DNA of 64,000 nt from Frischella japonica (GTDB taxonomy: Bacteria > Pseudomonadota > Gammaproteobacteria > Enterobacterales > Orbaceae): NCBI RefSeq assembly GCF_014489845.1, contig NZ_JABURY010000006.1:1-64000 (forward strand). The letters run 5' to 3'. Made by a program: the position numbers and the translations under genes. This document shows positions 5,870-29,177 of the stretch, in pieces. The notes beneath the pieces were generated by a model. That model was given only the letters and a program-made list of their open reading frames with translations, did no database searches and had not been told where the DNA came from. Every line of letters begins with the position of its first letter. The first letter of the stretch is position 1.

Positions 5870-6649
5870 CTATTTACTAAAGGTAACTTCATGGCCATAG
5901 CTTTGGATAATTTGTTGAATACGATCCATAGTTTCACGTGGTGGTGGTTCGACTCCTTCCAACATATATTTATCGCCTAAGGTAGCCCATTTGTATGCCC
6001 CCATTTTGTGATAAGGAAGCATTTCGACTTTTTCAATATTTTGCATACCTTGAATAAATTTACCTAGACGATGGGCTGAATCATCATCATCAGACCAACC
6101 CGGTACAACCACATAACGAATCCATGTGCGTTTATTAATTTTTTGCAAATATTTGGCGAATTCTAAAACACGTTTATTCGATACGCCGACTAGTTTTTGA
6201 TGAATATCATCGTTAAGTTGTTTAAGATCAAGCATAACTAAATCAGTTTGTTCCATTAAAGCATTGGTCGTTGCATCAATATTACGTGCATAACCATTAG
6301 TATCTAAACAGGTGCCAATACCTTGCTCATGACAGGCTTTAAACCATTGTGTTACAAACTCGGCTTGCAGCATGGCTTCACCACCTGAAGCAGTAACACC
6401 GCCGCCATTGGGAATGATGAAATGTTTGTAAGTTACAATCTCTTTCATCAGCTCATCAACGGTAACTTCACGACCTGCTTTAAGATCCCAAGTATCGCGG
6501 TTATGGCAATACAGACAACGCATTAGGCAGCCTTGAAAAAAAACGATAAAACGAATACCGGGACCATCCACCGTACCAAAGGATTCAAAAGAGTGAATCC
6601 GACCCTTTATCGCTTGTTTGGTTGTCATAATAATATTTTGTTGCTCCAT
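5870..6649 (-). CDS. pflA: pyruvate formate-lyase-activating enzyme (PflA)
   Basis: This radical SAM enzyme puts the glycyl radical on pyruvate formate-lyase under anaerobic conditions. The iron-sulfur motif CLMRCLYC (CxxxCxxC) is present near residues 41-48, after the family segment [17 protein letters not shown] conserved [11 protein letters not shown] segment follows. The protein has 259 residues from the first ATG, against 246 in E. coli. A second ATG at residue 8 ([14 protein letters not shown]) is nearer the usual length and may be the true start. In relatives pflA follows pflB directly. Here pflB ends about 20 kb upstream on the same strand, with the ter island and a group II intron between them, so pflA needs its own promoter (see the FNR-like site at 6710-6723). 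Confidence 0.97.
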
Positions 6650-6852: not shown

Positions 6853-6884
6853 AAAAAATAGTGCCCAAAAGGACACTATTTTGC
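6853..6884. terminator. terminator at the end of the ter operon
   Basis: On the minus strand, arms AAAATAGTGTCC and GGGCACTATTTT (one mismatch) close a TTTT loop and are followed by Ts. The hairpin lies about 110 bases after the terE stop codon, and the other strand also ends in Ts. The rest of the 343-base gap 6650-6992 holds the pflA promoter region and no gene. Confidence 0.75.
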
Positions 6885-6992: not shown

Positions 6993-7568
6993 TTAAATGG
7001 AAACACCATAGTTTGCAGCAACGGCAGCTAAACCACCGGCAAATCCCTGACCGACGGCTTTGAATTTCCATTCAGAACCATGGCGATATAGTTCACCGAA
7101 TATCATAGCGGTTTCTGTTGAAGCATCTTCTGACAGATCGAAACGCGCTATTTCAACACCAGTATCATTATTAAAAATGCGAATAAAGCTATTACTTACC
7201 ATACCGAAGTTTTGCTTACGCTTTTCAGCATCATAGATAGTTACACTAAATACCAGTTTTTTTACATCAGCTGGCACTTGCGTTAAGTTAATTTTAAGTT
7301 GTTCATCATCGCCGTCACCTTCACCAGTTAGGTTATCGCCCTGATGCTCAACTGAGCCGCACGGGCTCGTTTTGTTATTAAAGAAAATAAAATGAGAATC
7401 TGACAAGACTTTATCATTCTCGCTAACCATAAATAAGGAAGCGTCTAAATCAAATGCTTGTCCGTCTGTAACTCTTGCATCCCAACCTAAGCCAACCATA
7501 GCTACAGTCATAGTAGGTGCTTCTTTAGTTAATGATACATTGCCACCTTTAACTAATGATACTGCCAT
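6993..7568 (-). CDS. terE: TerD-family protein TerE
   Basis: This 191-residue single TerD-domain protein is closest to plasmid/EHEC TerE, sharing the start [20 protein letters not shown] and the end [14 protein letters not shown]. The family is cytoplasmic and TerD domains bind calcium. They contribute to resistance to tellurite, phage and some colicins by an unknown mechanism. The acidic segment [13 protein letters not shown], thought to bind metal, is intact near residues 97-109. The start has a strong GGAGGT site. It is the last gene of the ter cluster, 16 bases after terD. A terF gene would normally follow, but none does. Confidence 0.93.
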
Positions 7569-7584
7569 TTATAATACCTCCAGA

Positions 7585-8163
7585 TTAAGATGCATTAATA
7601 CCATATTGTTGACATACTGAAGCTAAACCACCGGCATAGCCTTGTCCAACAGCGCGGAATTTCCATTCACCATTATGACGATAAAGTTCACCAAATAACA
7701 TTGCTGTTTCAGTAGAAGCATCTTCGGTTAAATCGTAACGAGCAACTTCAATTTGAGAATCATCATTAACTAAGCGAATAAATGCCCCTGTAACTTGACC
7801 AAAGCTTTGTTTACGAACTGTAGCATCGTGAATGGTTACCACAAACACTAATTTAGCAACATCAGCGGGAATTTTATCCAGTTTGATTTTAATTGATTCA
7901 TCATCACCTTCACCTTCACCGGTTCTATTATCACCCGTATGTTCGACAGAACCATCAGCTGAACGTAAGTTATTATAAAATATGAAGTCTGAATCACTAC
8001 GCACTTTGCCATTGTCAGCTAAAAGGAAAACTGAAGCATCAAGGTCATAATCTTGACCATCGGTAGCACGTACATCCCAACCTAATCCAATTAGGACATT
8101 CTTCATACCTGGATCAGTTTTACTTAAAGAAACATTACCACCTTTAGAAAGTGAAACACCCAT
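7585..8163 (-). CDS. terD: TerD-family protein TerD
   Basis: This 192-residue TerD-domain protein is nearly colinear with the reference TerD, beginning [15 protein letters not shown] and ending [10 protein letters not shown]. The metal-binding-type loop [13 protein letters not shown] is intact, as is the paralogue-wide segment [19 protein letters not shown]. The start has AAGGAG upstream. It lies between terC and terE, as in plasmid-borne clusters. TerD proteins are soluble and bind calcium. The exact role in stress resistance is unknown. Confidence 0.95.
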
Positions 8164-8192: not shown

Positions 8193-9227
8193 TTACTTAT
8201 TTTCATCTTCTTGTTTAGAAGGGAATAAAAAACTGGCAATAATACCGATAGCTAATACAACTAATATGATAATTAGGCTTGCTGTAGCTGAAATACTATA
8301 ACCATGATGCCATAAATGCTCTGAGGCATTTAAAAATAATTTAAAAGCAATAAAAAATAATATGACAACAACGGATTTTTCGAGATGCACTAAAAATCGT
8401 TTTAATGCTTCTAAAACAAAATATAAACTACGTAAGCCAAGAATGGCGAACATCATTGCGCTATAAATTATCAATGGTTCGCGACTTACCGCAATAACAG
8501 CTGGCACTGAATCAAATGCAAACATGACATCGGAAATTTCAATAACTGCTAAACATAAAAATAGAGGCGTGGCATAGATGGCAGATTTTGCTGTGCGATT
8601 TACCACAAGATCTTTATTTTCGGGTTTAGTTAATTCTTCATCGACATGTTGCCGATTAATAAAGAAATTGTGACCATATATTTTTGGCCAAACGGGGAAA
8701 AATCGTTTAACTAAACGATAAGCCAAATGTTGAGAATAATCTTCGATTTCTTCTTCATTATCATTACTTTTTAGCATCATTACTGCAGTCCACCCGACCA
8801 CTAGTGCAAACGCTAACTCAACATATGAACCTAAACTAAGTAATCCCGTTCCTATAACAACAAAAATACCTCTAAATATAATGGCGCCTATAATGCCCCA
8901 ATACAAAATTCGATGCCAGTATTTGCTTGGTATGGAAAACCAAGAGAAAATGGCCATCATCACAAAGAGATTATCAACTGACAGCACTTTTTCTAAGGCA
9001 TAACCGGTTAAAAACAAACTTCCGACCTCAGAACCAAAATCGTAAAAAAGATATGCTGCAAATAGCATGGATACGGCAATCCAAAACACAGACCAAAGTG
9101 CAGCACTTTTTAAACTAATTACACTATCTTTACGATGTGAAAAGAGATCAATAAAAAGGGCACCAACCAATAAAACTACAAATACAATGGCGGTTTGAAT
9201 TGGGAAACCAAGAAATGTTGTTGTCAT
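8193..9227 (-). CDS. terC: TerC-family integral membrane protein
   Basis: TerC is the membrane component of ter systems. The family is linked to metal-ion export, notably manganese in other TerC homologues. The protein has about 344 residues and seven or more hydrophobic segments. The TerC core is visible as GYALEKVLSVDNLFV and EISDVMFAFDSVPAV, each with the acidic residues expected inside the membrane. I start it at the second ATG (9225-9227), which has AGGA five bases upstream; the ATG two codons earlier overlaps that site. The gap to terA upstream is only about 140 bases, so terB, which normally sits here, is absent. Confidence 0.95.
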   Translation of the reverse strand: MTTTFLGFPIQTAIVFVVLLVGALFIDLFSHRKDSVISLKSAALWSVFWIAVSMLFAAYLFYDFGSEVGSLFLTGYALEKVLSVDNLFVMMAIFSWFSIPSKYWHRILYWGIIGAIIFRGIFVVIGTGLLSLGSYVELAFALVVGWTAVMMLKSNDNEEEIEDYSQHLAYRLVKRFFPVWPKIYGHNFFINRQHVDEELTKPENKDLVVNRTAKSAIYATPLFLCLAVIEISDVMFAFDSVPAVIAVSREPLIIYSAMMFAILGLRSLYFVLEALKRFLVHLEKSVVVILFFIAFKLFLNASEHLWHHGYSISATASLIIILVVLAIGIIASFLFPSKQEDENK

Positions 9228-9369
9228 TTTCATCCTAACTTATTCATAAATTTATTTATTAGTTCTAATACATCATATGATTTACCATAACATTGTTTTA
9301 GAACGACTTTCTTACTTCTATTTATATTTTAATGATTTATAGGGATTTTAACACAATTAATTACTTAAT

Positions 9370-10542
9370 TTATTTTCTCCCTGCACTCCATCTAAAACCC
9401 CAACCATAGGCATAATCTAATTCTCTTTGGCTACGAAAATAGCGATTAATACGTTCGACGTTTATCGCCCCATTATCATTTTTTAATCGTGCTATAGCAC
9501 ATAAGATATTGCTGTTATTGCCATCGGTGAGAAATGTTTCAATGACAGGTTGATCGGGTACATGAATGCGGACGACACCATCGGCTTGGCTCCAATTAGG
9601 CAGTCCTTCGTAGATAAAGGTGTAAATTAACACTTCATCAATATTATTCCAATGTGAGCCATTAATGTATATCCATTCACCATCTTGATTTGCACCAGTA
9701 CGATCATCACCCATAAGTTCAACATAACATGGAGATTGAAATGAGCCAAAACAATTACCAAGCGCTTGAATCACATGAATACTCTGATCTTTTAACCTTA
9801 CAAAGGCCGCTAGATCTAAGTCAATATTTGGAGACCGATTAAAGAACTCTGATAAGAATCCTTTTTTCGTGGGCTGTTCTTGTTTGTTCCAGTTTAAGTT
9901 TATGCCAATTTTTCCATAATCATTTCTTTTCGAAAGACTGACGGATGTTCTATCTTTAGATAATGAAATTTTATTTAAATTTACACTACTGCTTGTGGTG
10001 GTATTATTTACTGTAGAAGTAGGAACGGGAGGCGTCGGTTCATCGATGACATTGACACCAAAATGTTCGGCTAAAGGTTTTAATCCACCATTGAATCCCT
10101 GTGCAATAAATCTAAATTTCCATTCGGTATTACGACGATAAATTTCTCCCATAATCAGCGCTTTTTCTTGTCGGTTGTTGATATCAACTTCACCAAGTGC
10201 GATGACTTCATTATTACAATCGAGTTGAATCGATAAATTTTTTAATTGACTAATTGGCGAGTATTGATCACAAGTAATAGTAAAAGCAATTTTTTGTACT
10301 TCGGCAGATAACTTTGTCAAGTCAACCCGAAACTCATGATTATTATTATGGGTTTGTTGCCAAATAATAGAAGCATCTTGATTTTTTGGTTGACCATAAA
10401 AGATCATATCTAAATCATCTTTAACTTTATCATTGGCAAATAATCGAAATGCTGAGGCATCAACAGGTAAGCCAGAATTGATTTTAATATTGATGACACC
10501 TTGATTAAGGACTATATTAGCACCTAAAGATAAATTGATCAT
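9370..10542 (-). CDS. terA: TerA: tandem TerD-like domain protein
   Basis: This 390-residue protein has two TerD-like halves. The N-terminal half (about 1-165) ends in the typical WKFRFIAQGFNGGLKPLAEHF. A Thr/Ser/Asn-rich linker (about 168-190) follows, then a second, divergent TerD-like half. The second half contains DLDLAAFVRL and GDDRTGANQDG in place of the usual acidic GEGDGDDE loop, so its metal site is probably altered. It also carries the lysine/hydrophobic insert KKGFLSEFFNR seen in TerZ and TerX. Its ATG overlaps the terZ stop codon as ATGA, which indicates translational coupling. The size fits TerA of plasmid ter clusters. Confidence 0.9.
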   Translation of the reverse strand: MINLSLGANIVLNQGVINIKINSGLPVDASAFRLFANDKVKDDLDMIFYGQPKNQDASIIWQQTHNNNHEFRVDLTKLSAEVQKIAFTITCDQYSPISQLKNLSIQLDCNNEVIALGEVDINNRQEKALIMGEIYRRNTEWKFRFIAQGFNGGLKPLAEHFGVNVIDEPTPPVPTSTVNNTTTSSSVNLNKISLSKDRTSVSLSKRNDYGKIGINLNWNKQEQPTKKGFLSEFFNRSPNIDLDLAAFVRLKDQSIHVIQALGNCFGSFQSPCYVELMGDDRTGANQDGEWIYINGSHWNNIDEVLIYTFIYEGLPNWSQADGVVRIHVPDQPVIETFLTDGNNSNILCAIARLKNDNGAINVERINRYFRSQRELDYAYGWGFRWSAGRK

Positions 10543-11132
10543 GGTTTCACCACCTTTTCGACTATCTGTGGATATATATCTTTAATCGTTCTTCCATTAC
10601 AAGGGAAACCTTGGGCGGTAAAATCCCATGAACCACCATTACGTTTTAATGTGGCAATAATAATGCCAGTATGCGGACCTTGCTCCGTTAATTGATAACG
10701 TGCTAATTCTTGATTATTTTGATCTAACACCCGACAAAAGGCATTATCGACATCATTAAAAGTTTGGCCCCTAAAACTATTCACAGTAAAGACTAAATAC
10801 TCAACCTCAAAAGGCAGTTTTGTTAAATCAACTTTTATGACTTCATCATCACCGTCACCTTCTCCGGTTAGGTTGTCCCCACTATGAATAACAGAACGGC
10901 ATTTGGATTTTAAATGACAAAACCAAACCTCATCGATATTCTTACCGTTAACATCTAACATTATACAACTAGCATCTAGATCAATAGAGTCGGTAATGCC
11001 ACCAAATAATGATGATAAAAACCCTTTTTTCTCTTTTTTAATCGGATCCCAGCCGAGACCAAAATGAAGTTTACTTAATGCGGTAGATTGTTTTTTTAGT
11101 GAGATGGTTTGGTTCTTATTCAGTGATACCAT
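10539..11132 (-). CDS. terZ: TerD-family protein TerZ
   Basis: This 197-residue TerD-domain protein begins MVSLNKNQTISLKKQ. It has the full metal loop [13 protein letters not shown] and a C-terminal Cys in GFPCNGRT. Between GLGWD and DLDAS it carries a lysine-rich insert, KKEKKGFLSSLFGG, which TerD and TerE lack. The start has GAGGAAA upstream. It is the first of the terZ-A-C-D-E run and lies 76 bases after the aldolase gene, so a promoter or processing site in that gap is possible. Confidence 0.92.
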   Translation of the reverse strand: MVSLNKNQTISLKKQSTALSKLHFGLGWDPIKKEKKGFLSSLFGGITDSIDLDASCIMLDVNGKNIDEVWFCHLKSKCRSVIHSGDNLTGEGDGDDEVIKVDLTKLPFEVEYLVFTVNSFRGQTFNDVDNAFCRVLDQNNQELARYQLTEQGPHTGIIIATLKRNGGSWDFTAQGFPCNGRTIKDIYPQIVEKVVKP

Positions 11133-11208: not shown

Positions 11209-12117
11209 TTAATAAATTCCAAAATATTTTGCTCGTTCTAAAATATCGGCTGCCCAACGGTGTTGGGTCGTCGGTTCACACATTGAGCCATTTACTTTGA
11301 AAACACCTTGTGTGGTGGCTAATATTTGTTGTGCTTCTGTGAATTCTTGTTGTGAAACACGATAGGCCTGATCAATGACTGTGAGTTGTGAAGGGTGGAT
11401 AATGGTTTTTCCAATTAGACCATGGTTAATATCTAAGATCACCTCTTGCCTTAATAAATCATTATCGGAAAAATGTTCACAAACCGGGGCAGTGAGATAA
11501 AAATTGTTCTGTGCAAAAACTGTCACTAACATTTTGATTAGGTAACCAATTGGTCCATCATAAAGCGTCATATTGCGATGGCGGCGTAAACGCAGACCAT
11601 TCATTAAATCATTTCCACCAATACGTAATACTAGAATTTTATCTCGACAGGGGTGAGCATTTAAAGTATCAGATAATTGCTGCATTTTGATAATATTATA
11701 GACATCTTGTGTTTCAAGGGTTGGCATCCAATAGAGTGATGTTGTGCGCAAAGCTTGCCACCAATCATCTAGACAATTTGCATCAAATTTTGGCAATACA
11801 AAACCCACCATATAGCTTAGGTCAACATTGGTAATAATCCATTTTGCCATGGCGATATTTCTGGGGCGTACAAAAATAAGCGGTAACTGATTACCAGATG
11901 GGTTATTTGTATAAAAACTGGCGACTTGTAACATGGTTTGCTGTAAATTGTGTTTAGCAAACAAAATATCTTCACTTTTAATCGCATCTTCTAGACAAAT
12001 TATTATTGATTTAAGAGTCGGATATTTATTATTAATAATAATTTTTGTCAGATCGGGATGATTTGCCGGAATATATAAACTGGAACCAATATTCCATGGT
12101 GATATCGTCTTATTCAT
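11209..12117 (-). CDS. HpcH/HpaI (CitE-like) aldolase of the ter biosynthetic block
   Basis: This 302-residue TIM-barrel protein resembles citrate lyase beta subunits and other C-C lyases of the HpcH/HpaI superfamily. Recognisable pieces are IICLEDAI near residue 39, FVRPRN, VLPK, the TLET strand, RIGGNDL and GKTIIHPSQL. These carry the acidic metal ligands and the acyl-binding arginine of the family. Its ATG overlaps the stop of the upstream gene (TAATG). Aldolases of this type recur in ter-linked operons with two PRTase-like proteins and an ATP-grasp enzyme, where a nucleoside-like product has been predicted. The substrate is unknown. Confidence 0.85.
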   Translation of the reverse strand: MNKTISPWNIGSSLYIPANHPDLTKIIINNKYPTLKSIIICLEDAIKSEDILFAKHNLQQTMLQVASFYTNNPSGNQLPLIFVRPRNIAMAKWIITNVDLSYMVGFVLPKFDANCLDDWWQALRTTSLYWMPTLETQDVYNIIKMQQLSDTLNAHPCRDKILVLRIGGNDLMNGLRLRRHRNMTLYDGPIGYLIKMLVTVFAQNNFYLTAPVCEHFSDNDLLRQEVILDINHGLIGKTIIHPSQLTVIDQAYRVSQQEFTEAQQILATTQGVFKVNGSMCEPTTQHRWAADILERAKYFGIY

Positions 12118-13196
12118 TAAGTAACCTTTTTTATAATAGTGACTGCACGATAATTACCCAATTGACTCTTATCTTCAATAATTTCAATATTTTTATTCTT
12201 AGCTAAATAAACTAAGAGTTCAACATCAGGATCATGAATATCTCGAACGAGGACATGATCGGGCACACGTCTAAGTACTGCTCTTGTTGCTTCAGCAATA
12301 CCAGGTTTAATTCGGTTTAAATTTGAAATATGATATTTATCGGCTAAATGATGAATAACTTGTTGACTTTTTAAGCGTAATTTTTGTTTTTCATCTGGAT
12401 TAAGGCTTAAAACAGGTAGTTGTTTTAAATCCATCTGGGAACGATGTTGATCAACGATATCGGCTATATATTGGCTGCATTCAAATCGAGTTAAATGATG
12501 GCATTCAATACAACCGTGTAAACCTTCATTCAACCAAATAGAACGAGAAATCATGCCCGATACGGGAGCACCCATGATTCCAAATGGAATAAGCCAATCA
12601 TCATCACTGGCAGATGCCCAGGCATAACCACAGGGATCAGCTAAAACGACCAGTTTTGGACTGCCATGATAACCCGGTCTTTCGGCTAGTGATTGTTGTA
12701 ATTGTTGGGTAATTGCACCTTTACCGGTCCAGCCATCTACAAAAACAATGCCTGCATGTCCATGTTTTTTTTCAATCCAATCCATTGCGGTGGTATCAAT
12801 ACCACGATCACGAATAATGCTAACACCATAATGATAGCTGGTTTTTCCCAGATCATTTAATGCTCTTTGCAACATGACACCAAGTGGCACACCGGCACGA
12901 ACTAAGCTAACTAATACGATAGGTGTCGATATGTGTTGTGCTAAGAAAATGGCAAGTTGTAACACTTCTTTGGCTAATCGCGACCCTTCTTTTTGGATCG
13001 CTTTTTCAAAGAGATCTAAATGCCAACTGGTTGGTTCAGGTTCATGACTGATCATCTCTGAATAGTGCTTTTTGCCAGATTGGATTAATTTTTCTTTAAG
13101 TTCTACCGGTGTCGTTGCCATTTCCACACGTTTAAGTAAGAATTGTACGTCTTGTGTTTTATATGAACCAGAAAAGGGTTTAATATTCTCCATCAT
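12117..13196 (-). CDS. StiP/PRTase-like protein with C-terminal PELOTA-type domain
   Basis: This protein of about 359 residues matches the ter-linked family named in databases as 'cysteine protease StiP' and, in comparative work, as a divergent phosphoribosyltransferase fused to a PELOTA RNA-binding-like domain. The PRPP-loop-like segment IVFVDGWTGKGAIT lies near residues 150-163, after LVRAGVPLG. The C-terminal 70 residues (from about 290) form the PELOTA-like part, containing ATRAVLRRVPDHVLVRD. I start it at the ATG that overlaps the previous stop as TGATG, rather than at a GTG one codon earlier. Whether it acts as transferase or protease cannot be told from sequence. The PRPP-like loop and the PRTase partner upstream favour transferase. 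Confidence 0.8.
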   Translation of the reverse strand: MMENIKPFSGSYKTQDVQFLLKRVEMATTPVELKEKLIQSGKKHYSEMISHEPEPTSWHLDLFEKAIQKEGSRLAKEVLQLAIFLAQHISTPIVLVSLVRAGVPLGVMLQRALNDLGKTSYHYGVSIIRDRGIDTTAMDWIEKKHGHAGIVFVDGWTGKGAITQQLQQSLAERPGYHGSPKLVVLADPCGYAWASASDDDWLIPFGIMGAPVSGMISRSIWLNEGLHGCIECHHLTRFECSQYIADIVDQHRSQMDLKQLPVLSLNPDEKQKLRLKSQQVIHHLADKYHISNLNRIKPGIAEATRAVLRRVPDHVLVRDIHDPDVELLVYLAKNKNIEIIEDKSQLGNYRAVTIIKKVT

Positions 13197-13984
13197 CACG
13201 CTTTCCCAAAAATTGATTGTTTAATGGTGTCACAAAACTGGCTTTTTTGTGGAATACAAAACCAATTGCATAATTGCATAAAACTAAAATCGCTCAAGCT
13301 ATCTCCCATACCCAATATTGGGAAAATGCCTCTTTCACGTTTTAATTTATCGAGTAACCAAGCGGTTGCTTTACCTTTTTCTATTGGGGTGGGGATCCAC
13401 GCAATGTTGTTACCATTGCGATGAATATAAAATCCTTCACTATCCAAAAGGGTTTCTAGCTCATCAGCAAATTGGTAAAGTTCTGCAATGTGATTACTAT
13501 CACGATGTTTCATTACAAAATAGATAGGTACATCATCATATTCATAATTAATTCTTACCCATGCATTGAGTTTTTGTTGTTGCATCATCTGCTCAATCTG
13601 TTGTTGTAAAGTGATTAAACGCTGACTGTAAGGGTGCATGGCGTGGCAAATTTGTTGTTGCCAAGCTGTATCACAATGTCCATTGGGATCTATGATTACC
13701 GCGCCATGGGTGGTTATTGCCCAAGAACGAAACGGTAATTTGACCCGTTTTATTTCTTCAGTACCACGTGCTGTAACGGGAATAACATCAGCATATTGTA
13801 GTAGCCATTGTACTAATAAAAATTGCTCTTCGGTCATAAAACTGCGAGGCATGAGTGTTCGGTCAAGTGCAGCTATATGTTGAGCTGTAATTTGCCATTC
13901 TTGTTGCATTTTGCGCTTAGTTTGAAATAACGTATCATCTAAGTCAGTCAAAACAACTGGTCTGTTTGTTAATGGATTAGGCAT
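13196..13984 (-). CDS. HAD-superfamily (Cof-type) phosphatase of the ter block
   Basis: This 262-residue HAD hydrolase has motif I DLDDTLF with both aspartates (near residues 14-20), motif II in VTARGTEE, the KGKATAW lysine, and motif IV GMGDSLSDFSF. The large cap between motifs II and III makes it a C2-type (Cof/sucrose-phosphatase-like) enzyme, which usually acts on sugar or nucleotide phosphates. It overlaps both neighbours by a few bases, so it belongs to one translationally coupled unit. A dephosphorylation step in the predicted nucleoside-like pathway is the natural role. This is inference. Confidence 0.87.
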   Translation of the reverse strand: MPNPLTNRPVVLTDLDDTLFQTKRKMQQEWQITAQHIAALDRTLMPRSFMTEEQFLLVQWLLQYADVIPVTARGTEEIKRVKLPFRSWAITTHGAVIIDPNGHCDTAWQQQICHAMHPYSQRLITLQQQIEQMMQQQKLNAWVRINYEYDDVPIYFVMKHRDSNHIAELYQFADELETLLDSEGFYIHRNGNNIAWIPTPIEKGKATAWLLDKLKRERGIFPILGMGDSLSDFSFMQLCNWFCIPQKSQFCDTIKQSIFGKA

Positions 13985-15098
13985 AACAAATTACCTCAAC
14001 ATTAGATGAAATCGTTTTTAATTGTTGGATAAATGTGGGATCAATACTATCAACTGACGTTTCAATACATAAGCGGATTTTGTCAAATTGTTGATGAGCA
14101 ATATTATAAATAAAGTTAGGAATACCTTGTCCATAATTATCCGCAAAGGATAGAGCAGATTTTATTGCCATTCCCTGTGCGATTGGGGAACGGGTGGTGG
14201 AAGCAAATAATACTTTCTCACCTTGTTGTTCTAAACGCTCTGCTAATAAAAATGGTTTCCACAGAAATTCCCCCGTGCCAATTACTAAAGTAGTTTTACC
14301 AGGATGAGCGGTAACATGGTGACCTAAATTATCTTGACTATGAGTGATACCTAATCGCCCCCAATCTTGTGGACCTACGATAATATTATGCTTTTGACTA
14401 GTAACATTAACCGCCGGCATGATAGGTGGTTTGGCATTTAAATTAGGTTGCCATGACCACTGGCCATTTAATAAAGCATAAGTTTGTATTGTAATATTAT
14501 TATGGCTAAGTTGGTTTTGATTCCAATTGATAAGCGTTAATATAATGATATTTTCAATGTTTTTTAAATAATTGGTATCTAATAAGGCACTGATAAGATT
14601 TCTAAATGTGTTACCGGTCGTCATTTCATCATCAATTAATACTAACGTCTTGGCTTGATTCAGACACGATCGCATCGTTGGTTCTGTTGGCAAATAAATA
14701 AGATGATCAGTTGCATGGCTATGATTTTCTTTAAATTCACATAACAATTCAGCATCCATCGTATGGCGAGTTGACGTTAATAGAATTGCCTGTTCGAACT
14801 TGTTTTTTGCTTCATGGAATACTCCTGCAGCTAATCCAACAGCGGTTTCTGCCATACCGATGAATACTGCGTTACCAGCAATGTCATTCGGTAACATGTG
14901 GCTTAATTCGCGATAACTATTACGCATCTTAGCTGGCGAAACAGGAATATGTTTACCTAATATTTTACTGACAAATAAAAAGGCACGTTTAGGATTATTT
15001 CTTTCAGCAATATCAAACAGATCTTCTGCTGAAAATTTTCCTTTTTGATAATTAAATGAAAGTGTGCCTCTGATTAACTGTTTTTTATTATAATTCAT
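13977..15098 (-). CDS. phosphoribosyltransferase with C-terminal TRSP domain
   Basis: This 373-residue protein is a type I PRTase-like enzyme. The PRPP-binding loop LVLIDDEMTTGNTF sits at about residues 152-165. A C-terminal TRSP domain (roughly 230-373) carries its namesake motif in STTRSPIAQG near residues 300-309. This two-domain family is found almost only in ter-linked operons beside an ATP-grasp enzyme. It presumably joins a base-like group to ribose phosphate from PRPP. Its start overlaps the ATP-grasp stop codon as ATGA, and its end overlaps the HAD gene by 8 bases. Confidence 0.85.
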   Translation of the reverse strand: MNYNKKQLIRGTLSFNYQKGKFSAEDLFDIAERNNPKRAFLFVSKILGKHIPVSPAKMRNSYRELSHMLPNDIAGNAVFIGMAETAVGLAAGVFHEAKNKFEQAILLTSTRHTMDAELLCEFKENHSHATDHLIYLPTEPTMRSCLNQAKTLVLIDDEMTTGNTFRNLISALLDTNYLKNIENIIILTLINWNQNQLSHNNITIQTYALLNGQWSWQPNLNAKPPIMPAVNVTSQKHNIIVGPQDWGRLGITHSQDNLGHHVTAHPGKTTLVIGTGEFLWKPFLLAERLEQQGEKVLFASTTRSPIAQGMAIKSALSFADNYGQGIPNFIYNIAHQQFDKIRLCIETSVDSIDPTFIQQLKTISSNVEVICYA

Positions 15099-16165
15099 AA
15101 TGATATTGTGATTAGATTAGATAAATTTTCTGGATATTCAATTACAGAGGTTGCCGAAATCACCTCAGCTTTTTTGAAATGTTGCTGACAGTAGGTTTGA
15201 ATTTGTGCTTGGCTAAGGATATCGAGATGGAATAAGACCATCAAACCAGCTAAATTAACCCCACTATATTGGGTATAGCCTACACCACCAGATGGACGCA
15301 TATTGATTTCTAATAGTAGTGGATGACCGGATTTGTCCATCCGTGTTTGAACATTGACTAGTCCATCTGCCTGCATGATATTTGCACAGCGACAAGCAAG
15401 TTCATAAGCGGGACCACTATTTTTAAGATATTGTTTTGACCCGTGCTTTTCTCTAGCTATGGCACATATTACTTCCCCCCGATTGACTACCATATCGACC
15501 GAATGTTCTGGCGAATGTAAATATGGCATTAAAACCATTGGTGGGAATGAATCTGCTGCGGCATAAAGCTGAAGATATACACTTGGTTTTACTACTCGTT
15601 GTTCAGGATGAGAAAATATTTTGGCTGCCGATACATTGTCATCAAAACGCCAAAAACCCATGCCATAAATACCGTGTACTGGTTTAATACATAATGAATC
15701 ATAAGGAGGATTATCAATATGTTGTTGTAACTGTTCTAAATGTTCAATCAATATGGAAGGCACAACCGGTAATTGATGCTGTTGCATAAATAAGGCAAAA
15801 TCCATTTTATTATTTGAGCATTTTAATAAATCTATATCACTTCCGCCGGTGATTAATTTCACACCCATTGCTTCAATTTGTGTTCGATGTTGTTCGAACC
15901 AAATAGCATTTTTCACAATATACATAACATCAATATGATATTGAGCAAGAACGTTGATAATAAAAGGTAACTTTTGGTGTTCTTCAGTTGGTTCAATGAA
16001 GGCAAAATCAGCAACAGATAAAATTTCATTGCGATTTTCGCGGTGCGAAGCAAAAATTTCTATTGTCAGGTTTTGTTCTTTAATAAATTTCTTTACGGCT
16101 AAAATGATGTCTCGTTGAGACGAGAAACCTTCCATAAACCAAATTCTTTTTATTTTATTATCCAT
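15095..16165 (-). CDS. ATP-grasp carboxylate-amine ligase-like protein
   Basis: This 356-residue protein has the ATP-grasp fold. An N-terminal pre-ATP domain starts near RIWFMEGF. The nucleotide-binding segment CIKPVHGIYGMGFWRF follows, and the magnesium-binding segment LLEINMRPSGGVGYTQYSG carries the expected Glu and Asn. ATP-grasp enzymes form amide, peptide or thioester bonds through an acylphosphate. In ter operons this family is predicted to ligate an amino acid or other carboxylate to the PRTase product. It is coupled to the PRTase gene by a 4-base overlap and lies 36 bases after the HAD-IB gene. Confidence 0.85.
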   Translation of the reverse strand: MDNKIKRIWFMEGFSSQRDIILAVKKFIKEQNLTIEIFASHRENRNEILSVADFAFIEPTEEHQKLPFIINVLAQYHIDVMYIVKNAIWFEQHRTQIEAMGVKLITGGSDIDLLKCSNNKMDFALFMQQHQLPVVPSILIEHLEQLQQHIDNPPYDSLCIKPVHGIYGMGFWRFDDNVSAAKIFSHPEQRVVKPSVYLQLYAAADSFPPMVLMPYLHSPEHSVDMVVNRGEVICAIAREKHGSKQYLKNSGPAYELACRCANIMQADGLVNVQTRMDKSGHPLLLEINMRPSGGVGYTQYSGVNLAGLMVLFHLDILSQAQIQTYCQQHFKKAEVISATSVIEYPENLSNLITISL

Positions 16166-16201
16166 ATTATCCTAAATGGTGTTGATAGATTTAATTAATA
16201 T

Positions 16202-16807
16202 TTATTTTGCATTAATTTCGATAAATTGTTGTTGTTTGTTGGACCACATAAAGCCTTTTTTAGCTAATTTAAGCATCGGAATATCGCCGATGGTATCACC
16301 ATAGGCATAGCAATTTTCAGTTTGAATTTGGGGATATTGTTTTAAAATTTGATCGACTTTTTCTTCACCATAACAATTCTGGCCTATCATTAATGGCGGT
16401 GTACCTAAAAAAGGCGTTGCAATGACATGGGTAAAGTGATTTTGTTTTGCCCATGGTACTAAATAAAGATTAATTGAAGCACTTACCAAAATGCATTCGT
16501 CGCCATTTTTAACATGTTTTTCTAATATAGCCATACCTTCAGGACGCATCATCCTCGGTAAAATTGAATCTATGAATTGCGTAACAAACTGCTCCAATTG
16601 CGTTGGTGTATATTTTGATAGATAAAGTAATAGGGCTTTATTTTTAACTTGTCCACGTAAATTTCTATTAAAGAAATAACGACAGATTAAAGGTAATATA
16701 AAGATCGATTTTAATACAAACCTCGGCCAACCGACAACAAATAAAAGAAAAGGTAATAATGAATCTTTAGTGGTTAAGGTACCGTCAAAATCAAAAAAGA
16801 CTTTCAT
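16202..16807 (-). CDS. HAD-IB family phosphatase
   Basis: This 201-residue HAD hydrolase of the phosphoserine-phosphatase-like IB subgroup has motif I FFDFDGTLTTKDS at residues 4-16, motif II CILVSASIN, and motif III/IV in YAYGDTIGDIPML. A hydrophobic, basic stretch lies in the small cap (residues 20-50). The preferred substrate is unknown; relatives dephosphorylate phosphoserine, histidinol phosphate and similar compounds. It opens the biosynthetic block, separated from the kinase gene upstream by 123 AT-rich bases. It is the second phosphatase of the block. Confidence 0.85.
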   Translation of the reverse strand: MKVFFDFDGTLTTKDSLLPFLLFVVGWPRFVLKSIFILPLICRYFFNRNLRGQVKNKALLLYLSKYTPTQLEQFVTQFIDSILPRMMRPEGMAILEKHVKNGDECILVSASINLYLVPWAKQNHFTHVIATPFLGTPPLMIGQNCYGEEKVDQILKQYPQIQTENCYAYGDTIGDIPMLKLAKKGFMWSNKQQQFIEINAK

Positions 16808-16930: not shown

Positions 16931-18430
16931 TTAATTGTCAATTAATTGGACAACAACTAAACGCCCACCATCTTCGCGTGATAATACAAACTGTGTACCA
17001 TCTTGAAGCGCTATTTTATCTCCGGTAGCAATTATTGTTTTGTCAGGAAGCGACATTAAATGCTCAATACCTTCATTGACTAACCACCATTGATCTTTGT
17101 GCAATATGAAATAGCCGACTCTCTTTTTTAAGTTTTCAGCAAGTCGTTCATTAGGTGCGATCAACCGATTTACATGCCATGGAAATAACGATTGTCCACT
17201 CCATACCATTAAACGGTGGTCATCTGGGCGGTAGCTGCCGGTCATTCTGGATGAATAGAGGTTTAAAATAGGTAGTTTACCTTTATAAGGTGTACCACAA
17301 TAGGGACAAGATGGCGCAGTTTTTCCTGAGAAAACATACCATTGTTGTTCACATTGTTTATTTTGACAGGGTTGAATTAAATCAATGGTTTTAACCAATG
17401 CGGTTTCCCATTCATCAGCAGTTGGTCTTTTGGCGGGATCATGAAGACCATCGATGAATGCACGTTCAAATAGTTTGGATAAATATGGACCAGTTATAGT
17501 ATAAGGAATTTTCGTTGGGTCGCCCCATGGTAATGCCGCTGGGGAGATTTGTTTTATTTTAACAGCATTACTTTTGTCTGTCGGATGTTCAATAAATAAG
17601 GCTTTTTCGCCCATTGTCATCGATTCATCTCGCATTTCATCATTAATATCGTGTACCTTGCCACCTCTTAAAGGATGGCGATATAATAAATACATATAAA
17701 TTAAAACCGCTAAAGCATGACGATCAGTTGTAATACTTGGCAATACCCGCTTAGGATCATCTTTGTTGAGATGGGCTGTTTTGACTACTTCTGGGGCGAT
17801 AAAATCTGGGGTACCTACAACGTCAGGTGGAAATTTTCCAGGTACAACTAATCCATCGATATCAATGATACAGGCGTGACCTAATTCAGGGTCAATTAAT
17901 ACATTTTTATAACTTAAATCACTATGACATAAACCGGCAGCATGCATTCTTCTTACTGCACGCGATAATTGTAGACATATTTTTAAATAGGTCAGTAAGG
18001 TTCCTTTTTCACGTGGATCAAGAAATTTGTTACGATTGCTGGCACTGGCAAACCATTTGCCTTCTTTTTCTCGTCCTTTTATATTCAGGAAATCATTATT
18101 TTTCGAACCATATTTGAAAAAGAAATGTTTTTGATAAGTAGGGATAACGAGTCCTAATTGTCCCTGATGTTCAACAATATCAGTTGGCCAACAAAATAGA
18201 TTGTACCAATAATCACCACCTTGCTGAGTAAAAATATTTTGGAAATAACGTCCAGTAATCATTTCAATCCGTTCACGCGATTGTTGATTTTGTGGTTTTT
18301 GATAAAATGCAATGACATAGGATTTATCAGGTGAAAAATAGACGTTTTTCATCGTTCCAGCACCGATAATTTCATCCACATAACTGACTTGTTTACCACT
18401 TTTAGTCACACAATTTATAATTTTAGCCAT
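16931..18430 (-). CDS. Ser/Thr-type protein kinase with zinc ribbon, ter-linked
   Basis: This 499-residue cytoplasmic protein has an N-terminal kinase domain (about 17-345). It shows the glycine loop GAGTMKNVYF (23-32), the catalytic loop HSDLSYKNVLID (169-180), a metal motif DIDG (190-193) in place of DFG, and GTPDFIAPEV (206-215) as the APE-like segment. A zinc ribbon follows, with cysteines at 355, 360, 375 and 378. A beta-rich C-terminal domain of about 110 residues contains TGDKIALQDGTQFVLS and may be FHA-like. No membrane segment is seen. The next gene upstream encodes a PP2C phosphatase, so the two likely act on the same phosphoprotein, perhaps a vWA or TerD protein. Confidence 0.88.
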   Translation of the reverse strand: MAKIINCVTKSGKQVSYVDEIIGAGTMKNVYFSPDKSYVIAFYQKPQNQQSRERIEMITGRYFQNIFTQQGGDYWYNLFCWPTDIVEHQGQLGLVIPTYQKHFFFKYGSKNNDFLNIKGREKEGKWFASASNRNKFLDPREKGTLLTYLKICLQLSRAVRRMHAAGLCHSDLSYKNVLIDPELGHACIIDIDGLVVPGKFPPDVVGTPDFIAPEVVKTAHLNKDDPKRVLPSITTDRHALAVLIYMYLLYRHPLRGGKVHDINDEMRDESMTMGEKALFIEHPTDKSNAVKIKQISPAALPWGDPTKIPYTITGPYLSKLFERAFIDGLHDPAKRPTADEWETALVKTIDLIQPCQNKQCEQQWYVFSGKTAPSCPYCGTPYKGKLPILNLYSSRMTGSYRPDDHRLMVWSGQSLFPWHVNRLIAPNERLAENLKKRVGYFILHKDQWWLVNEGIEHLMSLPDKTIIATGDKIALQDGTQFVLSREDGGRLVVVQLIDN

Positions 18431-18471: not shown

Positions 18472-19980
18472 TTACCATAACACAATTAAAGTTCGATCAT
18501 CATGGTTGCCAGGAGAAGCAAACGTCATCCAATCTAATAATGCTTTTGATGGATCTGTTGCTGTTTCTAAATATGGGGTCAGCTCATTAGTTAATTGATA
18601 CCATTTATCTTTATTATTTAGTTGAAAATCTGTTTCAAATTTTGGATCCGAAATACCATCCGTCATTAAGAAAAAATAATCAATATCTTGCCATTTGCCG
18701 ATCCGAATACGATTGTAAAAATCGAGTTCACGCATAATCGTATTATCGAGGAATCGTGTTTGCCCAGCAAATTCGCCACTATCAGCTACGCTTAATAAGC
18801 GAAGGTTATCTTTATAACTAAATGCGGCTATTGCCCCATCACCGACGGAAAATGTTGCAGCAAAAAAGTCATTACCGAGCTTCAACGTTACTGCGGCTAA
18901 AACCGTTGTAGAATAGGTTTTAAAGGCATGGTTTGTTTTATCAGCTTCAACTTCAAGCTGTTTTATTGCTAGTACTGCCGCATCACGAAACCAATTTTTA
19001 AATTGTAGTCCTACTTGTTGTGTAGCAATATGATCCCATTGTGTAACAAGGCTCACTAATGATTGATTCTCTGTGTCTAAAAGCTGATGTTTAAGGTATT
19101 CACCTATGGTAGTAACAGCTAATTTTGACCCCTTTCTGGAGTTACTTGCACTCCCTGCACCATCAGCAACAATGGTAATATTCCATCCATTTGCTAAGTG
19201 TTCCACGAAAAAATCATCATCTCGAAATGAGCCAACGTGAGCATGAGAGCGCCCACGACGACTTGCCGCAGCAATTTTAATTTCAGTCGATTCAATATAT
19301 TGATTGGCAAGGCTAGGTTTAAAATAGGGATCCTTCTCATCGGCCGGGATATCTTTCCATAAACTATTAGGGTCTGGATTAACAATTACCTCAATTTCTG
19401 TCGACTCAGTTGCATAGCCCTCGACCCGCCATTTAATTTGTATAGTATAGGTTCCGGCCCTTTGCGGTGTTCCTGCAATGGTTTTGGTCGTATTATTATA
19501 ATCAAGATTGAGATCAGTATGATTAAACAATACCTGTTCGATAATTAGATTAATATCTGCGGGAAACGATTTAACTTCAATGGCAGCTGAATAAGATTCA
19601 GCAACTTTTAGATTAGGTAGACAAAATTGTGGTGTATAACCCATTAATTGCGTGAATATTGGGAGATTAGATTGATTAATATTTTTTTCACTAATTGTCA
19701 TGCTGTCTATGGCAGATACTATTGAGCTGTTGGTTTTATACTCGAGCCAATGTGTGATCGGTACTGCAAAAGGTAAACTAACTGAAAAATAATCATTTGA
19801 TTCGCCATAGCCGTCTATTGTCTGTTCTAATTGCTGATGGATGTTGGTAATCAACTTAATAGTTTTATCAAGACTATTTTTAACTGATTCTTGTTGTATT
19901 AACTGTGCGATCTTATCTTGAGAAATCCCTGTAATAATTATAGCGATAATTTGTTGGTAAATCTCATCAGTTTTAGACAT
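18472..19980 (-). CDS. PP2C-type protein phosphatase with N-terminal Ig-like region, ter-linked
   Basis: This 502-residue protein has a C-terminal PP2C domain from about residue 235 to the end. The metal motif VADGAGSASNSRKGS lies at 271-285, with SVGDGAIAAF, FLMTDGISDP and the terminal GNHDDRTL also present. All the metal-binding aspartates are in place, so it should be active on phosphoserine or phosphothreonine. The N-terminal 200 residues include an Ig-like beta segment (TIAGTPQRAGTYTIQIKW, about 167-184), which may bind a partner. No signal peptide is seen. Its start overlaps the vWA/zinc-ribbon gene by one base (TAATG), and the kinase follows after 41 bases. Confidence 0.9.
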   Translation of the reverse strand: MSKTDEIYQQIIAIIITGISQDKIAQLIQQESVKNSLDKTIKLITNIHQQLEQTIDGYGESNDYFSVSLPFAVPITHWLEYKTNSSIVSAIDSMTISEKNINQSNLPIFTQLMGYTPQFCLPNLKVAESYSAAIEVKSFPADINLIIEQVLFNHTDLNLDYNNTTKTIAGTPQRAGTYTIQIKWRVEGYATESTEIEVIVNPDPNSLWKDIPADEKDPYFKPSLANQYIESTEIKIAAASRRGRSHAHVGSFRDDDFFVEHLANGWNITIVADGAGSASNSRKGSKLAVTTIGEYLKHQLLDTENQSLVSLVTQWDHIATQQVGLQFKNWFRDAAVLAIKQLEVEADKTNHAFKTYSTTVLAAVTLKLGNDFFAATFSVGDGAIAAFSYKDNLRLLSVADSGEFAGQTRFLDNTIMRELDFYNRIRIGKWQDIDYFFLMTDGISDPKFETDFQLNNKDKWYQLTNELTPYLETATDPSKALLDWMTFASPGNHDDRTLIVLW

Positions 19981-21005
19981 TATCCTTTTCCTCTTATCAC
20001 ATCAAAATCCTCGTCCGGGCTATCCATATTAAATTGTAACTGCTGTTCACACCACGGGCATATTGCGTCACCTGTATGGTCGATACATAAAAGATTTCCA
20101 CAATTACAAACAGCAAAAGCGATATTGTTACCACAATGTGGGCAACCTGGTGCACCAATTAATTGATTTGTATTAACTAATAATGCAGTATTTTTATTAT
20201 CACTCCAGTCAAAATATTCATTATCAACTGGATAACACCCATCTAACTTATATTTATGCTGGTGATTCAGATCAGTTACATTATTGGCAAGTGTATATTT
20301 GATCAAATACGGTTGTCTTACATTTGAGCATTTACCGACCAGAACAACACAATTTTCATCATAATACTGAGATGCTTTCGCATCAGAAAAACTAAGGACA
20401 TTACTATAACTATTAATTGATGTGATATCTTGATTGATATTTTGGCTATGCGCAGAAACAGAAGAGGTTATCCATTTAATAAATTGTGCAAAATCGTCTT
20501 GGCTATTGTCATTAAATAATATTACCGTTTCTGTTAGCTGATGCAATATGCTCATATCAGCAGAATGACCAAGGCTAATCGCAATAAAATTGGCTTTATT
20601 AGCATATTGTTCTTGCCAAATTTTTATTTCTTCATGAACTTTATCCGTAGGACGACCATCAGTAATTAAGTAAACGATAGGTTTCCAGTCACCTTTGCTT
20701 TCCGATGTAGTTTTCTTAAGTGTTGTCTCCATCTGTTGCCGTAACTCACGTAAGGCTGCTCCTAATGATGTTCCTCCCCCAATAGGTAACATCGGGGGAT
20801 AAAATGAAATCAAATCAATAAGTGGCACAATGGTTTTGGCTTTTCCGGCAAAAGCAATAACTGAGATATATACTGTTTCAAGCGCATGGGGATCGCGTCT
20901 TAAATCAGTCACGATTTTTTGGATCCCCTTTTTGAGTTTCTCCAGATTACCGCCTATCATTGATTCAGAACAATCCAAAAGAAAAAAAACCGGCAATCTT
21001 CTCAT
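19980..21005 (-). CDS. TerY-type vWA protein with C-terminal zinc ribbon
   Basis: This 341-residue protein has an N-terminal vWA domain (about 1-190). Its metal-ion-dependent adhesion site is seen in LLDCSESM (DxSxS), the Thr of GGGTSLGAAL and the Asp of LITDGRPTD. A TerY-C-type zinc-binding region at about 285-325 contains GCPHCGNN, CNCGNLLCIDH and CPWCEQQL, enough Cys/His ligands for two zinc sites. vWA domains bind protein partners through a metal ion. This is probably a scaffold linking the ter proteins to the kinase/phosphatase pair. It begins MRRLPVF, like its two shorter paralogues in the cluster. Confidence 0.88.
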   Translation of the reverse strand: MRRLPVFFLLDCSESMIGGNLEKLKKGIQKIVTDLRRDPHALETVYISVIAFAGKAKTIVPLIDLISFYPPMLPIGGGTSLGAALRELRQQMETTLKKTTSESKGDWKPIVYLITDGRPTDKVHEEIKIWQEQYANKANFIAISLGHSADMSILHQLTETVILFNDNSQDDFAQFIKWITSSVSAHSQNINQDITSINSYSNVLSFSDAKASQYYDENCVVLVGKCSNVRQPYLIKYTLANNVTDLNHQHKYKLDGCYPVDNEYFDWSDNKNTALLVNTNQLIGAPGCPHCGNNIAFAVCNCGNLLCIDHTGDAICPWCEQQLQFNMDSPDEDFDVIRGKG

Positions 21006-21022
21006 TTTTGTATACTCTATTA

Positions 21023-21661
21023 TTATAAAACTAATTGTATTTCAGGAGGTGGTGCGGGTAAATTATCGGAATTATTATTTACTCCAGCACTGAGACTTCC
21101 AGATGCGACACTGGCGGATACCCATTTAAAAAAACCAGCAAAAGCACTTGAATCTAATGTTTCTAAAGCGACAACATGTGATGTCAGTAATTTTAAATGA
21201 TCAGTATCGGCCTTTTTACCGATTGCACAGGCAATTATAGAAGCAATAGCAAAATTTTTGATGGATTTACATGCTTCAGTATACGCAAACATATCGGAAG
21301 GTTTGCCATCGGTCATTAAAAAAACCATTGGCCGCCAGTCACCTTTTTGCTCACTATTGGATTTTTTTATATCCCGATTCATACTGTGCATTAAGCACTC
21401 TAATGCTGCACCTGTGAAGGTCGCCCCAGCGTTAGCAACTGTTATATCTTGAAACTGAAACTGTTCCAGCGCGGTTAAAGGTACCACTTCTCTGGCTTCA
21501 TTATCATAAGTAATGATTGAAATATAAGCACTTTCTAACGCATAGGGATCTTGTCTTAAAGCATTAAGCATTGATTGTATACCGACATTCACTGCGTAAA
21601 TTGACTCGCCACGCATTGAACCTGATGTATCAATCACTAAATAAACGGGTAATCTTCTCAT
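21023..21661 (-). CDS. TerY-like vWA domain protein (second)
   Basis: This 212-residue single vWA-domain protein begins MRRLPVYLVIDTSGSM, with a complete DxSxS metal site, the Thr of GATFTGAAL and the Asp of LMTDGKPSD. It ends in a short linker and the tail LPAPPPEIQLVL. The other 212-residue TerY protein in the cluster ends almost identically, so the tail may be a docking peptide. It is predicted to be cytoplasmic with no signal. It overlaps terX by one base and lies 17 bases before the zinc-ribbon vWA gene. Its length and sequence fit TerY1/TerY2 of enterobacterial ter islands. Confidence 0.88.
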   Translation of the reverse strand: MRRLPVYLVIDTSGSMRGESIYAVNVGIQSMLNALRQDPYALESAYISIITYDNEAREVVPLTALEQFQFQDITVANAGATFTGAALECLMHSMNRDIKKSNSEQKGDWRPMVFLMTDGKPSDMFAYTEACKSIKNFAIASIIACAIGKKADTDHLKLLTSHVVALETLDSSAFAGFFKWVSASVASGSLSAGVNNNSDNLPAPPPEIQLVL

Positions 21662-22302
21662 TATAAATAACTTTGTATATATGATACGAATGTATCGGAA
21701 TCACTGGCTTGACCAATCGCTTTAAACTGCCAACCACTTGTTTCACGATTTAATTCTGCAAAAATCATTGAGCGTTTATGATTAAATTCAGAGCTAGTTG
21801 AGAGATCAAAACGAACCATTTCTAAACCTTTAGCGTCTACTGCTCGAATAAAGGCATTTTGGACTTCACCAAAATGTTGTTTTCGTTTAGTTGCATCATA
21901 AATTTGGACGATAAAGACGATTTTTTGATATGTGACATCAAGATCATTTAACTTCAAAATGATTTGTTCATCATCACCATCGCCTTCACCAGTACGATTA
22001 TCACCTGTAAGCCAAACGTGTCCAGATTTGTGTCGCAAATTATTGAAAAAAATGATATCACCATTATCAAGGGTTTGTTTACCATTTTGTATACTCCCTA
22101 GATTGGCTATTTTACCATTGCTGTTGCATAGAAAGGCGACCACATCAAGATCATATTCCTCATTTCCACCACTAAATAGCGTTTGGATAAATGATTTTTT
22201 CTTTTCTGCAACATCCCAACCAAGGCCAATTGTGACGTTAGATAAATCATATTGGCTTTTTGATAAACTTACTCCTTGCCCCTTTTTCAAACTGACTGAC
22301 AT
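21661..22302 (-). CDS. terX: TerD-family protein TerX
   Basis: This 213-residue TerD-domain protein begins MSVSLKKGQGVSLSKSQ and keeps the metal loop [13 protein letters not shown]. It carries the lysine/hydrophobic insert EKKKSFIQTLFSGG between GLGWD and DLDVV, as TerZ does. It is flanked by two vWA genes, the order seen in other terX-terY clusters, with a 1-base overlap downstream and 37 bases from the upstream vWA gene. TerX is thought to work with the TerY proteins rather than with the terZ-E run, and its position here agrees. Confidence 0.9.
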   Translation of the reverse strand: MSVSLKKGQGVSLSKSQYDLSNVTIGLGWDVAEKKKSFIQTLFSGGNEEYDLDVVAFLCNSNGKIANLGSIQNGKQTLDNGDIIFFNNLRHKSGHVWLTGDNRTGEGDGDDEQIILKLNDLDVTYQKIVFIVQIYDATKRKQHFGEVQNAFIRAVDAKGLEMVRFDLSTSSEFNHKRSMIFAELNRETSGWQFKAIGQASDSDTFVSYIQSYL

Positions 22303-22339: not shown

Positions 22340-22978
22340 TTATAAAACTATATTGACTTCAGGTGGTGGAGGAGGTAAGTCATCTAGACCAATTACTTCT
22401 TTATGGTTAGATTCTACTTTTTGACTTCCTGTTGAGATACTTGCTGAAACCCATTTAAAAAACGCTTTAATCGAATTTGAATCAGCTGTATCTAGCTGTA
22501 ATACCACTTCTGTGATTTGTTTTAATACGTTGGTATCAACAGATTGCCCTGCAGCACAGGCGATGACCATCCCTTTTTTTACTTTTTCAAAGTCTTTTAA
22601 ACCTTGTTGCCAATTGTCTGTTGGCATACCATCAGTCATAATAAATACTAATGGACGCCAATCACCTTTGGTTTCATAAGTTGTTTTAACTATTTCCTGT
22701 TCAATACATTTAGCTGTAAGTTCTAACGCTTGACCTAGAGATGTTGTTCCAGCAGCCTTTAACTCTGGTGTTTTGAAATTTAACAAATCAGTCAAAGGGA
22801 TAATTTGTTTTGCAGAACTATCAAATGTGATAACGGAAATGTAGGCAGTTTCTAACGCATAGGGATCTTGCCTTAGTGTTGTTAGTAGAGTTTGTACTCC
22901 ATTTTTTACGGCTTCTATTGCTTCCCCGTGCATAGAACCTGATGTATCTAATACGAGATAAACGGGTAATCGTCTCAT
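22340..22978 (-). CDS. TerY-like vWA domain protein (first)
   Basis: This 212-residue vWA-domain protein begins MRRLPVYLVLDTSGSM, with an intact metal site (DTSGS, GTTSLGQAL, IMTDGMPTD). It ends with the tail LPPPPPEVNIVL, shared in pattern with the second TerY-like protein. It is the first gene of the whole minus-strand island, so the main island promoter should lie in the 600-base gap upstream. It was probably produced by duplication with the gene at 21023-21661. Confidence 0.9.
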   Translation of the reverse strand: MRRLPVYLVLDTSGSMHGEAIEAVKNGVQTLLTTLRQDPYALETAYISVITFDSSAKQIIPLTDLLNFKTPELKAAGTTSLGQALELTAKCIEQEIVKTTYETKGDWRPLVFIMTDGMPTDNWQQGLKDFEKVKKGMVIACAAGQSVDTNVLKQITEVVLQLDTADSNSIKAFFKWVSASISTGSQKVESNHKEVIGLDDLPPPPPEVNIVL

Positions 22979-29108: not shown

Positions 29109-29177
29109 ATTTTTCACCTCAGTTTTTCTAAAAGCTTTACCTACTCTCTATTATAAATATGGGTAGATATTGTAAAA

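Follow-up and report, generated by a model that had tools for sequence, protein, structure and literature searches.

We analyzed a 64,000-nucleotide stretch of the Frischella japonica genome (hereafter, the window; assembly GCF_014489845.1, contig NZ_JABURY010000006.1, positions 1 to 64,000), which carries a block of six enzyme genes at positions 11209 to 16807, within a Ter (tellurite/membrane-stress) locus. All six are intact open reading frames (ORFs) on the minus strand, and their products match the expected Pfam families with E values from 1e-6 to 1e-100. In order of transcription, they encode a HAD-IB phosphatase of 201 amino acids (16202 to 16807; PF12710, and TIGR01490 above its cut-off), an ATP-grasp ligase of 356 amino acids (15095 to 16165; PF15632 ATPgrasp_Ter, 1e-35), a phosphoribosyltransferase (PRTase) fusion, PRTase_2-TRSP, of 373 amino acids (13977 to 15098; PF15609, 1e-57; PF12500, 3e-22), a HAD-IIB sugar-phosphate phosphatase of 262 amino acids (13196 to 13984; PF05116), StiP, which joins a PRTase fold to a PELOTA/L7Ae-like domain in 360 amino acids (12117 to 13199; PF11202, 2e-86; PF15608, 2e-27), and a C-C bond lyase of the CitE/RipC type with 302 amino acids (11209 to 12117; PF15617, 3e-100). 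A 36-bp gap separates the HAD-IB and ATP-grasp genes, and the junctions that follow are overlaps of 4, 8, 4, and 1 bases; the 4-base overlap between HAD-IIB and StiP would shrink to 1 if StiP started at the ATG at 13196. A preliminary description of this DNA had listed six same-direction, mostly overlapping genes, and the ORFs, their strand, the span, and the overlaps of 1 to 8 bases all agree with it. The six genes do not, as its term "six-gene block" might imply, stand in isolation: they are the central part of an array of 17 genes, all on one strand.

A congeneric complete genome (G398) has the array at the same chromosomal site, and comparison with it shows 75% DNA identity over 16 kb and 65 to 80% protein identity for the six enzymes. 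Ratios of nonsynonymous to synonymous substitution (dN/dS) are approximately 0.08 to 0.16 for the six enzymes against this relative, rough values given that dS is near saturation, and the enzymes are under strong purifying selection. The gene order of the block was seen again in ∼90 loci. Because of this identity, the low dN/dS, and the recurrence of gene order, we conclude that the block is not a chance assembly. In each of two relatives, an ortholog of the HAD-IB gene occupies the corresponding position (65 to 67% identity), and the window HAD-IB is ∼29% identical to that of a Pseudomonas aeruginosa Ter block.

The six genes are not equally constant. Across 89 well-covered loci, a sample in which close relatives of the query predominate, so that the counts are not independent events, PRTase_2 is present in 89, HAD-IIB in 88, the lyase in 85, and ATP-grasp in 64; the order PRTase-HAD-StiP is recurrent, and TerD/TerC neighbors occur in 83 to 87 of the loci. 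In a set of 398 Pseudomonadota genomes, the 12 with PRTase_2 above cut-off are, with zero exceptions, the 12 with StiP above cut-off, and a strong match to the C-C lyase is found in 8 of these 12. The core of the block is therefore PRTase_2-TRSP, HAD-IIB, and StiP. TerD was detected in 42 of the 398 genomes and in 11 of the 12 that carry the block; most Ter genomes are without the block, and in one genome the block stands without TerD. Locus L104 of genome G253 holds a PRTase_2-StiP-HAD triad with no TerD detected genome-wide, so that the core here occurs naturally apart from Ter.

Of the 89 loci, 25 have no ATP-grasp, including those of Xenorhabdus, some Proteus, and single members of the Neisseriaceae, Rahnella, Erwinia, and Photobacterium, and for this reason we regard it as a tailoring enzyme rather than a hub. 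Whole-genome searches of 18 genomes that lack the locus copy returned ATP-grasp matches of at most 38 bits, compared with 141 to 144 bits in two positive controls. Most of these weak matches lie in ORFs of ∼1,080 to 1,100 residues, a length suggestive of carbamoyl-phosphate synthase, and one match, of 351 amino acids, is ambiguous; in 17 of the 18 genomes, no comparable ATP-grasp was found elsewhere. The lyase, missing from 4 of the 89 loci and from the Acinetobacter jumbo phage vB_AbaM_ME3, is usual but not universal. The preliminary description had envisaged one ATP-grasp ligase supplied by two PRTase-like enzymes and a C-C lyase; these absences do not bear out that scheme, and we rejected ATP-grasp as the pathway hub.

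That description had also proposed structure prediction and active-site comparison. In confident AlphaFold2 models (each from a 32-sequence alignment), PRTase_2-TRSP and StiP are both predicted to fold as PRTases. The model of PRTase_2-TRSP has a predicted local distance difference test (pLDDT) score of 91.1, and nearly all of the PDB matches listed for this protein are adenine, xanthine, hypoxanthine, and uracil PRTases or PyrR (best E value, 2e-5), with the adenine and xanthine enzymes and PyrR as the best folds; one match to an acetyl-CoA synthetase looks spurious. D156, D157, E158, T161, G162, and T164 of PRTase_2, which make up the DDE..TGxT motif for phosphoribosyl pyrophosphate (PRPP), are invariant in 96 sequences. 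Together, the modeled fold and a PRPP motif with both acidic pair and TGxT mark PRTase_2 as a predicted type I phosphoribosyltransferase. Conservation extends to the ATP-grasp ligase (K161 and the ExNxR residues E286, N288, and R290, in 66 homologs) and to Y15, R84, E135, D170, and H241 of the lyase, which matches CitE-like PDB entries weakly. Sequence searches of the PDB gave no convincing solved homolog for PRTase_2, ATP-grasp, or the PRTase part of StiP. The earlier statement that all catalytic motifs are intact thus stands for PRTase_2, the HADs, ATP-grasp, and the lyase (66 to 96 homologs), and fails for the PRPP loop of StiP, which is noncanonical.

The StiP model (pLDDT, 92.8) points to a PRTase fold of the hypoxanthine-guanine type: all 50 PDB matches listed are PRTases of this type (best E value, 2e-4; TM-score by target, ∼0.4 to 0.5). 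The Ter literature likewise assigns StiP to the PRTases (PMC5571608). In place of the canonical PRPP motif, in which an acidic pair precedes TGxT, StiP has a shorter loop, FVDGWTGKGAI, with D155 as its single invariant aspartate; the loop is nearly invariant across StiP's own family. The predicted fold contradicts the public annotation, since both the name of PF11202 and the product names at NCBI call the protein a cysteine protease. If these names were correct, the block would be a proteolytic stress module. Apart from the names, however, the evidence runs the other way: the nearest folds of the model are PRTases, and no cysteine is conserved to 95% in 96 homologs, the nearest to it, C230, being lost in a divergent member. 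We consequently rejected the cysteine protease assignment, and a proteolytic role for the block is extremely improbable.

The noncanonical loop also bears on a reading in which the PRTase-like proteins are PyrR-like sensors or regulators of PRPP or nucleotide pools, with the other enzymes detoxifying or recycling damaged sugar phosphates under stress. PyrR is among the top folds for PRTase_2, and phosphatases are prominent in the block, as this reading would have it. PRTase_2, however, keeps a complete catalytic PRPP motif, and the optional ATP-grasp and C-C lyase point to synthesis; we consider this reading decidedly unlikely.

The C-terminal domain of StiP raises a different alternative, namely, that StiP binds structured RNA and that the end point is RNA modification or RNA-coupled regulation, with no free small molecule. 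This domain is among the best-conserved parts of the protein (N295 and K298-P299-G300-I301-A302-E303-A304-T305-R306), and its profile matches are almost all to archaeal L7Ae and to eL8/eS12, although their E values are weak (0.06 to 0.7, i.e., 0.06 at best). E303 and R306 are invariant, whereas the position at which L7Ae has the asparagine of its N-E-x-x-K signature is A302 in StiP. We take the StiP signature, IKPGIAEATRAVLRR, to retain two features of the L7Ae RNA-contact motif, the glutamate and the basic residue, and to lack the asparagine. Published work has also modeled this domain on L7Ae (PMC5571608). A search with Rfam found no known structured RNA within the array, and the phosphatase, lyase, and ligase partners would suit small-molecule chemistry better. 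Overall, we judge an RNA end point for the block to be unlikely.

For the third core enzyme, there is a solved relative. HAD-IIB matches PDB entries 6D3V, 6D3W, and 6CJ0, deposited as "Trehalose phosphatase," over its full length (E value, 4e-44), and D14, D16, T71, K203, D228, and D232 (DxDxT and GDSxxD) are invariant in homologs. The preliminary description had called it a Cof-type HAD; it is a HAD phosphatase, but closer to the mannosyl-3-phosphoglycerate/sucrose/trehalose-phosphate phosphatase group (PF05116). The HAD that lies between PRTase_2 and StiP in a Ter block on a P. aeruginosa plasmid (CP109686) is 99.6% identical to the solved protein and ∼37% identical to the window HAD-IIB. 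A study of the Pseudomonas trehalose phosphatase in FASEB J, cited in PMC6838324, reportedly observed hydrolysis of trehalose-6-phosphate. None of the papers we read states that the Ter-block HAD and the solved trehalose phosphatase are the same, although the FASEB J study or the founding Ter paper may note it.

Taken at its name, the solved relative would make HAD-IIB a true trehalose-6-phosphate phosphatase and place the block in trehalose or osmolyte metabolism. Trehalose-6-phosphate synthase (OtsA; PF00982), however, was not found in 21 of 25 block-bearing genomes, including that of the window; if G114 and G460, at whose loci no HAD-IIB was detected, are set aside, OtsA is absent from 19 of 23. 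Given this absence from most block genomes, trehalose-6-phosphate is unlikely to be the native substrate, and we know of no part played by PRTases in trehalose synthesis. A role in trehalose metabolism is accordingly very unlikely, and HAD-IIB probably acts natively on a different sugar or ribosyl phosphate.

Considering the locus as a whole, we think it probable that the block is the biosynthetic arm of the Ter locus and makes a small ribosylated ligand via the three-enzyme core. PRTase_2 would move phosphoribose from PRPP onto an acceptor, and HAD-IIB would then take the phosphate off the resulting sugar or ribosyl phosphate. StiP might carry out a second phosphoribosyl step or, alternatively, bind PRPP or the product together with RNA and so control the pathway. 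The CitE-type lyase, ATP-grasp, and HAD-IB would add tailoring steps in many lineages, although not in all. The predicted product, a small ribosylated ("nucleoside-like") ligand, would tie the pathway to TerD/TerA, TerC, and the TerY-kinase-PP2C module. The protein families, the conserved residues, the linkage to Ter genes, and the division into core and optional genes are observed directly, as are the folds to which the models match, whereas we infer the order of reactions, the class of product, and any role as a signal.

Several points weigh against this interpretation. The HAD has a solved relative that bears the name of a trehalose phosphatase and not of a nucleotidase, the PRPP loop of StiP is without the usual acidic pair, and PRTase folds also act as RNA-binding regulators, as in PyrR. 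To our knowledge, no product, substrate, or mutant phenotype is on record for the six genes. Furthermore, in work on Klebsiella, terZ-F alone gave Escherichia coli K-12 tellurite resistance, so that the block is dispensable for the best-known phenotype (PMC8115787) and must therefore add something else or be conditional. A bolder version of the biosynthetic interpretation, in which StiP is an RNA-gated PRTase that couples ribosylation to RNA state, the core is shared with a phage, ATP-grasp and the lyase decorate the product by lineage, and the crystallized Pseudomonas "trehalose phosphatase" is the ribosyl-phosphate phosphatase of the pathway, is speculative, and we would give it rather poor odds. 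Ter loci are widespread among conjugative plasmids and O157-type E. coli, and a product of their enzyme block was predicted over a decade ago. With a core of three enzymes, one of them tied to an existing crystal structure and assay, two or three purified proteins would suffice to test directly what the block makes.

The array that encloses the block runs from 22978 down to 6993 in the order vWA, TerD, vWA, TerY, PP2C, kinase, the six enzymes, TerDx, TerA, TerC, TerD, and TerD. Upstream of the enzymes are the first vWA gene (22340 to 22978; 76 to 87% identity to vWA genes of other Ter loci), a TerD-family gene (21661 to 22302; PF02342, 1e-53), a second vWA gene (21023 to 21661; 74 to 85% identity to vWA genes of other Ter loci), and genes for TerY, with vWA and the metal-binding TerY_C domain (19980 to 21005; PF15616, 9e-48), a PP2C phosphatase (18472 to 19980; PF13672, 1e-41), and a Ter-associated protein kinase-like protein of 499 amino acids (16931 to 18430; PF00069/PF06293). 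Downstream are TerDx, a TerD-family protein in a TerZ-like position (10539 to 11132; PF02342 over cut-off), TerA, with a TerD domain in 390 amino acids (9370 to 10542; PF02342), the membrane protein TerC (8193 to 9233; TIGR03718 TerC/Alx, 2e-100, above cut-off), TerD (7585 to 8163; PF02342, 1.6e-86), and TerD/TerE (6993 to 7568; PF02342, 2e-85), all on the minus strand. A terminator-like hairpin at 6855 to 6882, with a 12-pair stem and a T tail, is the best minus-strand match and would close the array, as judged by match to consensus. A promoter scan was near chance (89 matches versus 77.5 expected) and served for orientation only.

The array does not have the terB between terA and terC that characterizes canonical terZABCDE: only a 136-bp gap lies there (9233 to 9370), and terB is likewise missing in two relatives. 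Genome-wide, the sole match to the TerB domain is weak and lies in a 286-amino-acid ORF on another contig, whereas TerB was found in 84 of the 89 comparable loci. No terW was found at the locus. A TerF-like TerD-vWA fusion stands alone on another contig of the same genome (C2:160375; L106:10366-11676), beside a PucR-type regulator. Near the block in some divergent loci, a membrane protein (L102:13579-14730 and L179:6775-7860) occurs where TerC was not detected; by its sequence, it is a putative calcium/cation exchanger.

The Ter array splits a pyruvate formate-lyase activase-like gene (5870 to 6649) from the genes for pyruvate formate-lyase (26826 to 29117) and a formate transporter (29178 to 30044), an arrangement also present in the same-genus relative. 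Upstream of the array is a group II intron (23839 to 26410, minus strand) with a reverse transcriptase-maturase-HNH ORF (23936 to 25741); it looks like a recent insertion, because the relative is without ∼3.4 kb there. Elsewhere in the window, an RpsF leader RNA (RF02893; 41535 to 41619, plus strand) is an ordinary ribosomal-protein leader.

DNA similar to that of the locus occurs in 2,364 plasmid records, mainly of Klebsiella, Escherichia, Enterobacter, and Salmonella, and the tested region is carried by 1,015 of 5,426 complete E. coli genomes. At least 587 StiP homologs turned up when GTDB representatives were scanned, and the 80 retained come from Enterobacterales, Shewanella, Marinomonas, Pseudomonas, Neisseriaceae, and metagenome-assembled genomes of Bacteroidota and Sericytochromatia. 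Genomes of the same order that carry the block include Pectobacterium, Rahnella, and Enterobacter. Only 3 of ∼36 genomes in the host's own family have the block, a pattern suggestive of either horizontal acquisition or loss. A StiP profile search of IMG/VR viral contigs gave no match; phage records with matches comprise one annotated jumbo phage and two unannotated short records. The PADLOC defense-family search returned only weak matches to PRTase and kinase domains.

Anantharaman, Iyer, and Aravind (2012) are said to have predicted a nucleoside-like product for the Ter enzyme block. The preliminary description assigned the window block to this type, and rightly so: every gene falls in a Ter-tied family, and TerD, TerA, and TerC are linked to it. 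It knew of no identified product, and our reading of the literature also found no report of one. A published Ter model follows the same logic, with a nucleoside or nucleotide derivative made by PRTases and HADs and sensed by TerB/TerD (PMC7824862). The Klebsiella plasmid pKPN-262 and the ter island of E. coli O157:H7 share with the window ATP-grasp, PRTase_2-TRSP, HAD, StiP, and lyase genes in the same order, and pKPN-262 also shares the TerY, PP2C, kinase, and vWA genes. In contrast to these enterobacterial loci, which have two divergent arms, the window locus is one-directional, has HAD-IB inside the block, at its 5' end, and is without TerB, TerW, and DUF4236. The P. aeruginosa block in CP109686 has the same six enzymes (29 to 51% identity to those of the window) followed by TerD/TerB/TerC genes, but there HAD-IB comes after the lyase rather than before ATP-grasp, insertion sequence elements interrupt the locus, and TerB is present. 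Phage vB_AbaM_ME3 shares with the window the gene order PRTase_2, HAD, StiP, next to a TerD, but has no ATP-grasp, lyase, or HAD-IB; its Ter system with PRTases and HADs has already been published (PMC7824862). Genes for macro-domain Appr-1-p processing and NAD synthetase adjoin the phage triad (1745 to 2371 and 40 to 810 of L209), hinting at ADP-ribose-like chemistry. The window block is thus a further example of the known Ter-associated block, and the differences seen in this lineage are variations of its arrangement.

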